DNA from: Elusimicrobiota bacterium
Lineage (GTDB): Bacteria > Elusimicrobiota > Elusimicrobia > JACQPE01
Direction of reading: 5' to 3'
NCBI GenBank assembly: GCA_016180815.1
Contig: JACPAN010000015.1
Span: 1-64,000, forward strand
DNA length: 64,000 nucleotides
Shown: positions 50,332-55,076 of the stretch, one piece after another
Layout of the letters: each line of letters begins with the position of its first letter
How positions within the stretch are numbered: the first letter of the stretch is position 1
Translations under genes and position numbers: made by a program
The notes under the pieces: model-generated
The model's database searches: none
What the model saw: the letters and a program-made list of their open reading frames with translations, nothing else
Told to the model about the DNA's origin: nothing

Positions 50332-51527
50332 GGCATGGACCTCCTCGTGATCGCGATATTTCTTTTTTTAAGCTCTTCAATGAACGCCTCGGCATCCAAC
50401 GCCTCTTCCAGCAATAAGAAGCCGGAGGGCTTTTTCCTTAACAACATCAGCATGGAAGCCGCGGCCGGGAATCCGGTGGTCCGCTCCATGGCCGAGAACC
50501 CCAGGCGATCGTCCGCATGCTCGATCATCTCAAAAACGGTTTTTTCGTAACGGTCGCTGTTGTTTAATCGGCCCTCCGCCGTCACTCTTAACGCCACCAA
50601 ATCGCGGGTTTCGGGGAACGCCAAGCGTTCGTAAAACAAGCGGCCCAATAACTGCCGGGGCGAAACGCGGACATCGCCGACGGAGATCACTTTGTCGTCG
50701 GTTAAACCCAGATCAGCTAAAAATTTCATCTTATCCGTGTAACCCGGGTAACGCAGCGTTTTATACACATAACGATGAACACGGTTTCGAAGCGTCCAGG
50801 GCGCCGTGGCCAAGGCGCCTCCGGTGATAAAGGCTTCCAAACGGCCCAAGACGCCGAAATCGATTTCCTCAACATCGCCGAGCGCTTGAACTTCCTTCGG
50901 ACGCCCGCCTTCTAAAATCACAGTCTGGCCGAAATGCGTCCCCCACAAGCCTTCAACGGCAAAAACGATTTTATAGCCCAACGGGCCGACGGGTTTTTCC
51001 GGAAGCCCGCCGCAATAAATCGACAAGCGTAAATCCCGATCCATATGCGCCAAGCCCCAGCCGGCCAGCACATTGGCCAACCCCGGAGCCAGCCCAAGAT
51101 CAGGCGCTAAAAAAATCCCTTTTTTCCTGGCCGCGGCATCAAGTTTTTGAATGGCCAGCGATGATTCCAAATAACCGCCCAAATCGCCGAAGGGCACGCC
51201 GGCCCCCACTGCGGCGCGGGCGATCACGGGATTGAGCGAATAATGCGAAGAGCTGATCACGGCCTTGGCGCCTCTGATCAATGAATTTAATTGCGCGGCA
51301 TTTTTCGCATCAATGCGCTTGGCCGTGATTTTGGGCAATGGCAAATGATCTTTGACCAGGGCGCGGCGAACGCGCCCGGTCAACGTGCGGATTTGCTTCG
51401 GATCCCGGTCGGCCAACACCAACGTATCCGCGATATCGCGCCCATACCGGGCCAAGTCATAAACAATAGCCGCAGCCTGACGGCCGCAGCCGATCACGAC
51501 AATAAAACGGTTACTTGGATTTCCCAT
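50292..51527 (-). CDS. Saccharopine-dehydrogenase-family enzyme (possible lysine 6-dehydrogenase)
   Basis: A 411-residue NAD(P)-dependent oxidoreductase with an N-terminal Rossmann fold (FIVVIGCGRQAAAIVYDLARYG) and AKAVISSSHYSLNPVIARAAVGAGV, LGLAPGLANVLAGWGLAH and GGLPEKPVGPLGYKIVF over residues ~90-200. Bacterial lysine 6-dehydrogenases and saccharopine reductases share this family. Next to the ALDH, it may turn lysine into piperideine-6-carboxylate (open form: aminoadipate semialdehyde) for oxidation to aminoadipate. Saccharopine or carboxynorspermidine chemistry cannot be excluded. It overlaps queF by 17 bp. Confidence 0.82.
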   Translation of the reverse strand: MGNPSNRFIVVIGCGRQAAAIVYDLARYGRDIADTLVLADRDPKQIRTLTGRVRRALVKDHLPLPKITAKRIDAKNAAQLNSLIRGAKAVISSSHYSLNPVIARAAVGAGVPFGDLGGYLESSLAIQKLDAAARKKGIFLAPDLGLAPGLANVLAGWGLAHMDRDLRLSIYCGGLPEKPVGPLGYKIVFAVEGLWGTHFGQTVILEGGRPKEVQALGDVEEIDFGVLGRLEAFITGGALATAPWTLRNRVHRYVYKTLRYPGYTDKMKFLADLGLTDDKVISVGDVRVSPRQLLGRLFYERLAFPETRDLVALRVTAEGRLNNSDRYEKTVFEMIEHADDRLGFSAMERTTGFPAAASMLMLLRKKPSGFLLLEEALDAEAFIEELKKRNIAITRRSMPCPQPQPEKTLSA

Positions 51528-51939
51528 TTAAACTTAAAACCCCCACCGATGGTTCTTTGCCGTAACGAGCCAGAATTTTTGTCGTTAAACCGCCCCGCGC
51601 CGCAAAATCTCCGGCAACCTCGCAAAAAACGGGCTTTACGGCGGCGGTAAAATCCCGCAAAATTCGATTGATCGTATTTTCTTGAAAAATGCCCATATTG
51701 CGGTAACCATTAACATAAAGCTTCAAGGCTTTCAGCTCCGCAACCCATTGGTCCGGCACATAACGGATAACGACCGTGCCGAAATCAGGCAACCCTGTCC
51801 TGGGGCAAATCGAGGTGAACTCGGAAATTTCAACTTTAATCTCGTAATTAGGGTATTGGTTTTCAAAAACCTCGATCACCGGCAGGTTTTGGTTTAAACC
51901 GGCCCGGGCATGTTTTGAGGTATAGGCCGCGCTTTTCAC
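51511..51939 (-). CDS. queF: 7-cyano-7-deazaguanine reductase QueF
   Basis: A 142-residue T-fold enzyme that reduces preQ0 to preQ1 with NADPH for queuosine tRNA modification. The catalytic Cys and Asp lie in EFTSICPRTGLPDFGTV; ELKALKLYVNGYRN is the family NADPH motif region. Short single-domain type, as in Bacillus QueF. The start is a GTG. It overlaps the saccharopine-family gene; the functional link, if any, is unclear. Confidence 0.95.
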   Translation of the reverse strand: MKSAAYTSKHARAGLNQNLPVIEVFENQYPNYEIKVEISEFTSICPRTGLPDFGTVVIRYVPDQWVAELKALKLYVNGYRNMGIFQENTINRILRDFTAAVKPVFCEVAGDFAARGGLTTKILARYGKEPSVGVLSLNGKSK

Positions 51940-51970
51940 TTTGTTTAAATTCTCACTTCGATAATCAATT

Positions 51971-52042
51971 TGCGCCCAGGTGGAGTCGAACCACCATCCC
52001 AGCCTTCGCAGGGCTATACACTATCCTTTGTGCTATGGGCGC
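51971..52042 (-). tRNA. tRNA-Arg (anticodon GCG)
   Basis: On the minus strand the 72-nt sequence folds with acceptor GCGCCCA/TGGGCGC, D stem GCAC/GTGT, anticodon stem TAGCC/GGCTG with loop CTGCGAA, and T stem GGTGG/CCACC with loop TTCGACT. The discriminator is A; CCA is not encoded. The loop gives anticodon GCG, which reads CGC/CGU without inosine. Most bacteria instead use ACG edited to ICG, so this is noteworthy. Confidence 0.93.
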
Positions 52043-52149
52043 ATTGGGATTTAGATTTTAGCTAAAGATAGGTGATGATTATCGGATTAATTAGGTAAAC
52101 GCATTGAAAAATATTTGTAAATGCGTCTTCTATATTTTAAACTTTCACC

Positions 52150-52638
52150 ATGCCGCCAAGAAAATGGGATCTCGCCAAGCTCCAATCTACAGTAGAAAAC
52201 TCAACCAGCGTTGCCCAGGTAATTAAAAAATTGGGTCTCCTCCCGGCTGGAGGAAATTACGTCCAACTAAAAAAATATATTCGTGTTTTTCGCCTTAATA
52301 TTTCTCATTTTAAAGGCCATGCCTGGAACAAAGGCATGCGCGGCACAGGCAGGCCTCATTCGCCGCTGGAAGCAATTCTTGTAAAAGGCAATTCCTATCA
52401 AAGCTTTAAACTCAAGAAACGCCTACTCGCCGCCGGACTAAAACCCGCACATTGTGAACAATGCGGCTGGGCACAAAAAAATGCTGAGGGTTATTTACCG
52501 CTAGAGCTTGATCACATCAACGGCGACCGATTCGACAACCGTCTTCAAAATCTTAGAGTTCTATGCCCCAATTGTCACAGCTTGCAGTCAACCCATCGCG
52601 GAAGAAATATTCGAAAACGGCTTAGAATGCTGTCCTAA
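52150..52638 (+). CDS. HNH endonuclease
   Basis: A 162-residue protein with an N-terminal helix-turn-helix-like region (LAKLQSTVENSTSVAQVIKKLG cut over residues 8-30) and a C-terminal HNH fold. Zinc pairs CEQCG and CPNC flank LPLELDHINGDRFDNRLQNLRVLC, split across ~110-140, which holds the D-H, N and N residues. Similar proteins are phage or free-standing homing endonucleases. It lies 107 bases from tRNA-Arg, in DNA clearly richer in AT than its surroundings, and probably arrived by transfer. Confidence 0.92.
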   Translation: MPPRKWDLAKLQSTVENSTSVAQVIKKLGLLPAGGNYVQLKKYIRVFRLNISHFKGHAWNKGMRGTGRPHSPLEAILVKGNSYQSFKLKKRLLAAGLKPAHCEQCGWAQKNAEGYLPLELDHINGDRFDNRLQNLRVLCPNCHSLQSTHRGRNIRKRLRMLS

Positions 52639-52647
52639 ATTACAAAC

Positions 52648-53769
52648 TTAATTTCTTCTAGAGCCTTTAGGATACTTTATGATTACCTTATTTATGTAAA
52701 TAGGGGCCACTGGTCTATCATAGGAATTGCGCTCTACCTGCGATATCTTTTCAACAATATCTTGCCCTTTAACGACTTGTCCAAAAATTGTGTGCTTGCC
52801 ATCAAGCCAAGACGTTCCGTTTACAGTGATAAAAAACTGACTGCCGTTTGTATTTGGCCCTGCATTAGCCATTGCTAGACGGCCAGGACGATCAAAAGTT
52901 AGAGATTTATCAATTTCATCTTCAAACCGATACCCAGGACCGCCGGTACCTTTGCCATCAGGGTCTCCTCCTTGAATCATAAATTCAGGTATTACACGAT
53001 GAAATTTAAGGCCATCATAAAATTTTCTTCCTTCCGTACCTTCTGACCTAGGATTTGGTCTCCCTTCGGCTAAGGTGATAAAGTTTGCCACTGTCTTTGG
53101 AGCTTTATCTTCAAAAAGTATGCAGGTAATTTCGCCTAAAGTTGTTTCAACAATTGCATATGTTCCTGGAAATAATTTATCTATCTTTTCCTTCCCACTT
53201 TTAATCTTTTGGCCAAAGGTTGCAGCTTCACCAATTTCAGAGCTATCTTCCATTTGAAGCAGGTTTCGCACAGAATTATCAACCTTTATCTTCACTCGGC
53301 CTGCTCCGATTACAACGCCCGTTTCAGTTTTAATTAGACGAGCGTTGAGTTCAATAGTTTTGCCCATGTTTGTATATGTCCCCGTACCTATTAAATCAGC
53401 TCCCAAAATTTTACCGAGTTTTTTCACGGTGTTATCTTCTAAAAGGCCTGTAGCCCCGAGCTTCATTTCACTCATAATTTGATCAATATGCGCACGAGTT
53501 ACAATTTGTAATTTTTTTAATTCATACAACTCCGTCAATAGCTGTTCTGCTATATGTTTGCCGAAATGAGAAGCTTCCCCATCAAGAGTTACGAATGGCA
53601 ATATGGCAACAACATCTTTTGTATCAGATTTCTTGGGCGCAATTTTTCGAGCAAGAGATTCAATACCGTTCTCCAATAACACAGCAGCTGATATTTCAGA
53701 ACCGGTCAATATCATTCCCACTAGCATAAATGCCTGGATTAGACGGGAAAAGTAAAACTTTATTTTCAC
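52648..53769 (-). CDS. Secreted CsgG/FlgO-like domain fused to a cyclophilin peptidyl-prolyl isomerase
   Basis: A 373-residue protein with a signal sequence (about residues 7-30) from a GTG start. Residues ~40-175 match the fold of CsgG/FlgO-type and TolB-N-like proteins: VVAILPFVTLDG, LLTELYELKKLQIVTRAHID and ILGADLIGTGTYTNMG. Residues ~205-370 are a cyclophilin: FHRVIPEFMIQGGDP, GSQFFITV and HTIFGQVVKGQDIV. Key isomerase residues Arg, Phe and Gln are present. AT-rich like its neighbours and convergent with the HNH gene. The fusion suggests an assembly or folding factor at the outer membrane. I know of no named family with this order. Confidence 0.85.
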   Translation of the reverse strand: MKIKFYFSRLIQAFMLVGMILTGSEISAAVLLENGIESLARKIAPKKSDTKDVVAILPFVTLDGEASHFGKHIAEQLLTELYELKKLQIVTRAHIDQIMSEMKLGATGLLEDNTVKKLGKILGADLIGTGTYTNMGKTIELNARLIKTETGVVIGAGRVKIKVDNSVRNLLQMEDSSEIGEAATFGQKIKSGKEKIDKLFPGTYAIVETTLGEITCILFEDKAPKTVANFITLAEGRPNPRSEGTEGRKFYDGLKFHRVIPEFMIQGGDPDGKGTGGPGYRFEDEIDKSLTFDRPGRLAMANAGPNTNGSQFFITVNGTSWLDGKHTIFGQVVKGQDIVEKISQVERNSYDRPVAPIYINKVIIKYPKGSRRN

Positions 53770-53833
53770 CAGGGTTTTTATACAATTTTTCAGTTGTTTG
53801 AATTAAAAATGTAGTTCAAATTCAGAGTACATA

Positions 53834-54724
53834 GTGATAAACGTGCATTTTTACAGAGTGAATCCCTTTGTTTTAAAGAATTGCGCTTTGGAAGTTGAGA
53901 GAAAATTCAAGGCTGCCCAAATCACCATAAGACCTCAAAGCGAGTTGGAGAGAATAATTTCTCAAGGAAAAGCGTTAATTGACTTTTTGCAACAGCAAAG
54001 AGCTGGCGTGCTAACTGATTTAATCTCAGGAGCTCTCTCTTGTTATCGTTTATTTTCAACTATTCAGAATCTTGATCCAGCCACGCCAAAGCATCGGCGC
54101 AAACTGTATGAATTATCTAGAAAAAATTTAATGTTTTGGACTACTGGCCAATCCTCTGCCAGAGACACTGAATGGGAAATATCTGCCTGGAACACTCTGT
54201 CTAGATGTAAATTATCACCCTCTTTCTCCGAGCCTCCTGATATCTGGATTCATCTTGATGGACAAATTTTTGCCGTTGCATGCAAAAATATTTACTCATT
54301 ATCAAACGTTGATAAGCAGGTTAAAGATGGCGTAGCGCAAATAAAAAAATCAAATTTTCCGGGGTTACTTTTTCTTTCGTTAGATAGTCCCTTGCAATTA
54401 AAATTTGCTCCTAGTCTTCGGCTTCCAGAAGGAAAACTTGAAACCCTTAATAATTCTATTGAACAGGACCTACTCTCTTTTAGGGATACAAAACAACAAA
54501 AATGGCATAAAGACTATCTGGAAGAAATCAAAACAGGAAAGTTGGCTGGAATACTTATTTCTGGAACTATTTCTAATCTAAGTGACCAATTTCAACCAGT
54601 CTTGCTTCAGAAAGTGCTTCTCTGGGCCCCTGGCTCTCAACCAGGGGATGCTCGAATAAAGATGAAATCGTTGCTCTCAATCATTCAACATACTTTTACT
54701 CAGTCACCACTTAATTTTCAATAA
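53834..54724 (+). CDS. Hypothetical protein, possible nuclease-like fold
   Basis: A 296-residue protein from a GTG start, in AT-rich DNA. The N-terminal half is helical (FLQQQRAGVLTDLISGALSCY). A central segment runs EWEISAWNTLSR, then PPDIWIHLDGQIFAVACKNIY, which recalls the Asp-x(n)-(E)xK motif of PD-(D/E)XK nucleases, but the acidic residue before Lys is replaced (ACK). The C-terminal part carries LAGILISGTISNL and KVLLWAPGS. A restriction-type or defence protein is possible given the island context, but no family is recognised. Confidence 0.6.
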   Translation: MINVHFYRVNPFVLKNCALEVERKFKAAQITIRPQSELERIISQGKALIDFLQQQRAGVLTDLISGALSCYRLFSTIQNLDPATPKHRRKLYELSRKNLMFWTTGQSSARDTEWEISAWNTLSRCKLSPSFSEPPDIWIHLDGQIFAVACKNIYSLSNVDKQVKDGVAQIKKSNFPGLLFLSLDSPLQLKFAPSLRLPEGKLETLNNSIEQDLLSFRDTKQQKWHKDYLEEIKTGKLAGILISGTISNLSDQFQPVLLQKVLLWAPGSQPGDARIKMKSLLSIIQHTFTQSPLNFQ

Positions 54725-54774
54725 AAATTCCAAATTAAAACGGGTCTATTACAGTCGTTATTAAAATTGTGCTG

Positions 54775-55076
54775 TGGGCGGAGAGGGAGTCGAACCCTCA
54801 CGGCCTTGCGGCCAACGGATTTTACACTTGACCCTCGTGTTTCCACGAGGAGTGGACTATACCTTTCCCCTGCCGTTGCATTGCTTTGCAAGAAGGGGAT
54901 CCCCCGTCTAGTCTCTACACCTTCCTCCCAGATTATGCCTGAGAGGCTTGGCTCGGGATTGGCATGTCTTTTAGAAGACTACAGCGTTCCCCGAATTTGA
55001 GGGAATTATTACCCTGCGGTTACCCGCAGGGAGACCCAATTTGAGTCCGTCGCGTATACCATTCCGCCATCCGCCC
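54775..55076 (-). tRNA. tRNA-Leu interrupted by a group I intron (probable anticodon UAA)
   Basis: The minus strand holds a 33-nt 5' exon (55044-55076) and a 50-nt 3' exon (54775-54824). Joined, they give a complete class II tRNA-Leu: acceptor GGGCGGA/TCCGCCC, anticodon stem ACGGA/TCCGT, a long variable arm with GGCCGCAAGGCC, T arm GAGGG-TTCGACT-CCCTC, discriminator A and no CCA. Splicing after U33 before TAAAATCC gives loop CTTAAAA, anticodon UAA. If the cut were one base later on both sides the anticodon would be CAA, but the intron would then end in U, not the required G. Confidence 0.92.
54825..55043 (-). other. 219-nt group I self-splicing intron in tRNA-Leu
   Basis: The intron begins CAAATTGGGTC, whose GGTC pairs with exon GACU to form P1 with a U-G pair at the splice site, and it ends in G. 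P2 is CCCTGCGG/CCGCAGGG with a GTAA loop (55012-55031). The conserved R sequence is seen as GTGTAGAGACTAGAC (54906-54920). The S sequence is AAGGTATAGTCC (54854-54865), and P9 is CCTCGTG/CACGAGG with a GAAA loop (54833-54850). GNRA loops in L2 and L9 are typical of small tRNA introns (IC3). It encodes no protein. Confidence 0.93.

Follow-up and report, generated by a model that had tools for sequence, protein, structure and literature searches.

Split tRNA-Leu(UAA) gene and its anticodon

Analysis of a contig stretch of 64,000 nucleotides from an Elusimicrobiota bacterium (hereafter the window, meaning the whole stretch) revealed a tRNA-Leu(UAA) gene, the sole one of this bacterium, in which U33 and U34 are almost certainly separated by a small group I ribozyme that lacks an ORF and is of the compact tRNA type. 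The gene spans 302 nt on the minus strand (window positions 54775-55076, exactly the interval given in a preliminary description of this DNA), including the discriminator A73; CCA is not encoded. Reading this strand from 55076 to 54775, an insert of 219 nt lies between two tRNA halves. The 5' exon (55044..55076, minus strand) comprises positions 1-33 and ends in ...ACGGACU33, the intron (54825..55043, minus strand; CAAAUUGGGUC...GUCAAGUG) contains no ORF, and the 3' exon (54775..54824, minus strand) runs from U34, A35, and A36 to A73. Both exons and the exact ends of the intron were delimited by comparison with an intronless gene, as described below. The split gene was missed by ARAGORN, which serves as a warning that a common tRNA finder overlooks the only UUA-reading tRNA of such a genome.

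A total of 47 tRNA-like matches were detected in the genome, and each of the twenty amino acids is served by at least one intact gene. The intact leucine genes carry the anticodons CAG, GAG, UAG, and CAA, and no other tRNA-Leu UAA gene was found in the genome, a draft of 39 contigs that is rated 99.5% complete but could hide another copy. Since an intact CAA gene is present and there is no other UAA gene, the anticodon of the spliced tRNA should be UAA instead of CAA, a reading that is also supported by the intronless orthologue. In twelve ORFs of the window, 86 UUA codons were counted among a total of 5439. From its gene content, the split gene is very likely the sole source of UUA-reading tRNA in this bacterium and, therefore, its splicing should be essential.

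The region next to the gene also deserves mention. Window positions 51500-54800 form a block of 36-47% GC within a window of 54% GC, bounded by a tRNA-Arg(GCG) gene on one side and by the 3' end of the split tRNA-Leu on the other. This block may be an insertion, because in another genome (G002) the tRNA-Leu gene is followed instead by an SmpB-like ORF (named by eye). An HNH endonuclease ORF (PF13392, PF01844; 52150-52638, plus strand) is located ~100 bases from the tRNA-Arg(GCG) gene and has no demonstrated link to the intron.

Splice boundaries

Of the three further genomes in the family to which this bacterium belongs, G002 and G003 contain an intronless gene that is 96% identical to the spliced tRNA (83 positions, 3 of them different). 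In G002 this gene is syntenic, as it adjoins the enolase gene and its orientation matches that seen in the window. All cut pairs were tried and one alone restored the empty loop ACGGACUUAAAAUCCGU, i.e., the cut after U33 (55044) and before U34 (54824), which reads CU|CAA...GUG|UAAAA. Although located without recourse to splicing rules, this cut agrees with both of them, namely the U33-G8 pair and the terminal G. The preliminary description had placed the cut between U33 and U34 and had proposed a comparison with intronless tRNA-Leu genes of related genomes as a check; the comparison bears out this placement, since the orthologue reads UAA and no other cut restores it. On a broader scale, 341 genomes of the phylum were queried with the presumed spliced tRNA, of which 302 gave matches. 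Within the 30 best of those matches, the uninterrupted genes that were read number 28, each a tRNA-Leu(UAA) with the loop CTTAAAA.

The well-known tRNA-Leu(UAA) intron of cyanobacteria and plastids lies at 34|35. The Elusimicrobiota intron resembles it in several respects: it resides in the same gene, tRNA-Leu(UAA), it is a compact group I ribozyme without an ORF, it recruits the 5' strand of the anticodon stem into P1, and it ends in G. However, its host belongs to the Elusimicrobiota, its insertion is at 33|34, so that the cut falls one base further 5', and U33 instead of U34 participates in the U-G pair. The guide sequence also differs, being GGGUC in the Elusimicrobiota intron versus GAGUG in the 34|35 copies seen (viral and plasmid). 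A pattern for the classical site (3' exon starting AAAATCC) was used as a control and did return 34|35 introns, thus the procedure separates the two sites.

According to the proposed mechanism, the 5' half of the anticodon stem and U33 would pair with the guide sequence of the precursor to form P1, including U33-G8. A bound guanosine would then attack after U33, and the freed U33 would attack after the terminal G, so that U33 and U34 become ligated. The product would be a normal tRNA-Leu with anticodon UAA and the ligated junction ACGGACU/UAAAAUCC. We infer from the sequence that this splicing is probably self-catalysed in the cell.

Group I core and RNA structure

The presence of a group I core, for which a covariance-model check had been suggested, was confirmed by an Rfam covariance search (cut-off of 50 bits). 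RF00028 was matched over the whole model at 55053-54833 on the minus strand, with 66.7 bits and an E value of about 1e-14, and this tRNA-Leu intron is the sole RF00028 match in the 2.85 Mb genome. The RNA fold had a z-score of -6.3 against dinucleotide shuffles, and 0 of 100 shuffles were as good. All of the elements listed in the preliminary description (two exons, a P1 U-G pair, GNRA loops on P2 and P9, core strands, and a terminal G) could be located, as follows, all on the minus strand. The 5' strand of P1 is made up of exon G29-U33 and intron C1 (55043..55048) and its 3' strand is the internal guide sequence GGGUCU (55032..55037); the six pairs occur in 7 of 7 Elusimicrobiota copies, and U33-G8, the U-G pair at the 5' splice site, is invariant among them. 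P2 is a hairpin of 8 bp with a GUAA tetraloop (55012..55031). P3 is formed by UCCCUC (54999..55004) and GGGGGA (54900..54905), P4 by UCGGG (54990..54994) and CCCGA (54953..54957), and P7 by GACUA, the R element (54909..54913), and UAGUC, the S element (54855..54859). The P8 hairpin (54866..54899) and the P9 hairpin with its GAAA tetraloop (54833..54850) complete the fold, and the terminal (omega) G (54825), kept in all relatives read, precedes U34 in GUG|UAAAA, as placed by the one pair of cuts that reproduces the intronless sequence. The length of 219 nt, the GUAA and GAAA loops, and the presence of only a short P5 extension are features of compact tRNA introns, and the tRNA-Leu intron is presumably of the IC3 type. 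P10 is weak, with U34-G, A35-U, and A36-U at best.

The structure named above is also supported by comparison of the seven Elusimicrobiota copies, across which 95.5% of cells pair, whereas shifting the partners by 1-3 columns lowered pairing to only 34-55%. Two-sided changes were observed in 20 pairs, compared to a shuffled mean of 10.1, and 0 of 500 shuffles reached as high a value. These compensatory changes are located in P2 (4 pairs), P8 (4 pairs), P9 (3 pairs), the P5 extension, and P6a. P1, P3, P4, P6, and P7 are invariant in this set, therefore covariation in them is silent either way.

Alternative readings of the split gene

A cut one base further on, after C34, would produce tRNA-Leu(CAA) with the loop CUC+AAAA. 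Ligation would also give a 7-base loop with a leucine anticodon, and a C1-G7 pair would lengthen P1, but the intron would then end in U instead of G, with C-G as its 5' splice pair. Moreover, two phage relatives have an intron that begins with a base other than C (A in L128 and U in L129), the genome has an intact CAA gene and would be left with no UAA gene, and the intronless orthologue reads UAA. We consider this reading very improbable. A one-base misreading of the classical 34|35 intron of cyanobacterial type is suggested by the same gene, a similar core, and a similar length, yet the base after ...GGACU is C and the base before UAAAA is G; as U is needed in these flanking positions, a 34|35 cut cannot restore the empty site. 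In addition, when the control pattern was matched to at least 120 viral stretches, the same procedure called Leu(UAA) 34|35 in 66 of the 80 viral loci read (L163-L242), where the junction is CTT|AAAA and the guide register is different. The probability of such a misreading is practically negligible.

There is an extremely small chance that we are dealing with a dead intron within a decayed tRNA gene. Against it stand the core strands, tetraloops, and both exons, all of which are intact, the compensatory changes among relatives, and the fact that a nearly complete genome in which UUA codons are used has no UAA gene besides this one. By far the best reading thus continues to be a compact group I intron inserted at 33|34.

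Group I introns across Elusimicrobiota

RF00028 matches were present in 62 of the 341 genomes of the phylum (about a fifth). Using a Leu(UAA) pattern that accepted either site (33|34 or 34|35), the intron was identified in 7 of the 341 genomes, which belong to three families; all copies were at 33|34, reading GTG|TAAAATC, and all keep U33-G and the terminal G. No 34|35 Leu(UAA) copy was retrieved by this pattern from the 341 genomes. Assignment of tRNAs and sites was achieved with a site-inference script that required a T stem, an acceptor stem, and P1, and by which inconsistent loci were not assigned. At least five combinations of tRNA and site were obtained for the group I introns of the phylum, including Leu(UAA) at 33|34, CAU tRNAs at 33|34 (five loci), and Arg(UCU) at 34|35 (up to four loci). 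These results extend tRNA group I introns to the Elusimicrobiota.

Other insertions were also recorded. The tRNA-Asn(GUU) gene is split inside the anticodon, at 35|36, in 19 Elusimicrobiota loci (L051, L053, L055, L062, L065, L073, L079, L081, and others), and in three genomes (L100, L103, and L108) introns of tRNA-Phe(GAA) were inferred to lie where stem and loop meet, at 31|32. One genome (G010; L076, G010:C22) has three RF00028 matches inside 2.4 kb that fall outside the tRNA assignments. The first loop of the Leu intron is near-identical to that of the G002 CAU intron, but close kinship between the two was considered and rejected, since their cores look different by eye.

Relatives in other phyla and comparison with known introns

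Among public genomes, 33|34 tRNA-Leu(UAA) introns were identified in Lewinella, Neolewinella, and Saprospiraceae (Bacteroidota), and also in a gammaproteobacterial MAG, Geminicoccaceae, and another alphaproteobacterial MAG. The introns of Lewinella, Saprospiraceae, the proteobacterial MAGs, and phages share the gene and the cut with the Elusimicrobiota intron; on the other hand, they fall outside the well-supported Elusimicrobiota clade and the P9 region is longer in most of them. The preliminary description had raised the possibility of a new insertion position. The position is indeed distinct from 34|35, but the 33|34 site is not unique to this genome, because it is also found in Bacteroidota, Proteobacteria, and phages.

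Small group I ribozymes likewise interrupt the anticodon loop of other tRNAs, i.e., tRNA-Ile(CAU) of Azoarcus and tRNA-Arg(CCU) of Agrobacterium, both inserted 3' of the anticodon. The Elusimicrobiota CAU introns differ from that of Azoarcus in being placed at 33|34. Vepritskiy et al. (2002) are said to have described the tRNA-Leu(UAA) intron of a deep-subsurface Pseudomonas isolate, which would likewise be a case of this gene outside cyanobacteria. In a 2014 review, the hosts given for bacterial tRNA group I introns are cyanobacteria and alpha- and betaproteobacteria (PMC4033280), and 36 bacterial genomes were reported to be without fMet or Ile2 genes owing to such introns (tRNAscan-SE 2.0 paper, PMC8450103). 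A literature search, with most subscription journals outside its reach, found no paper in which Elusimicrobi, group I introns, and tRNA occur together. The earlier view of an uncommon host therefore holds, both by this search and by the host groups of the review, among which Elusimicrobiota is not listed. Overall, the kind of element is familiar, while the Elusimicrobiota host and the 33|34 position look little charted; claims of novelty are provisional.

History of the 33|34 site

The five Elusimicrobiota copies placed in the tree formed one clade (support 100/100). They descend from one ancestral intron and their presence is patchy. One phage 33|34 intron grouped with a 34|35 intron (support 97/93), which points to a slide of the site. 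When a single origin of the 33|34 introns was tested, five label changes were required on the tree and at least two were forced by the starred branches, but one clade of all 33|34 introns was not rejected by the AU test (p 0.18). The two classes of intron differ by one guide base and by the exon that supplies U34. Tentatively, the 33|34 introns might be register-shifted relatives of the ancient 34|35 tRNA-Leu(UAA) intron, a scenario that we regard as possible though rather unlikely. A change of the guide from A to G opposite U33, together with the loss of U34 by the 5' exon and its gain by the 3' exon, would slide both splice sites by one base and leave the mature tRNA unchanged. This would have occurred more than once, and phages with tRNA arrays would be possible vehicles between phyla. 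Two neighbouring insertion sites told apart in one tRNA gene offer a clean natural case for the study of splice-site sliding.

Group I introns in viral and plasmid sequences

The 33|34 tRNA-Leu(UAA) intron was detected in five viral contigs (L128-L132), in three of which (L130, L131, and L132) further tRNA genes are present as arrays (15, 7, and 8 genes, respectively). A BLAST search of phage records gave short matches only. The phage group I introns known by 2014 were all in protein genes despite the many tRNA genes of phages (PMC3984707); in contrast, tRNA-Leu(UAA) split at 34|35 was very frequent among the viral contigs that we read. Plasmids are also represented, as the window query matched 1247 plasmid records, with identities of 60-80% in 1243 cases; two of these records were read in detail. 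Plasmid pCTX-M3 (NC_004464.2; L283:1501-1797) carries an unannotated tRNA-Leu(UAA) gene with a 34|35 group I intron, ~650 bases from aac(3)-IId. Finally, Gordonia phage Daredevil (L286:960-1103) has a sequence resembling a group I core, under the Rfam cut-off, beside its integrase gene.
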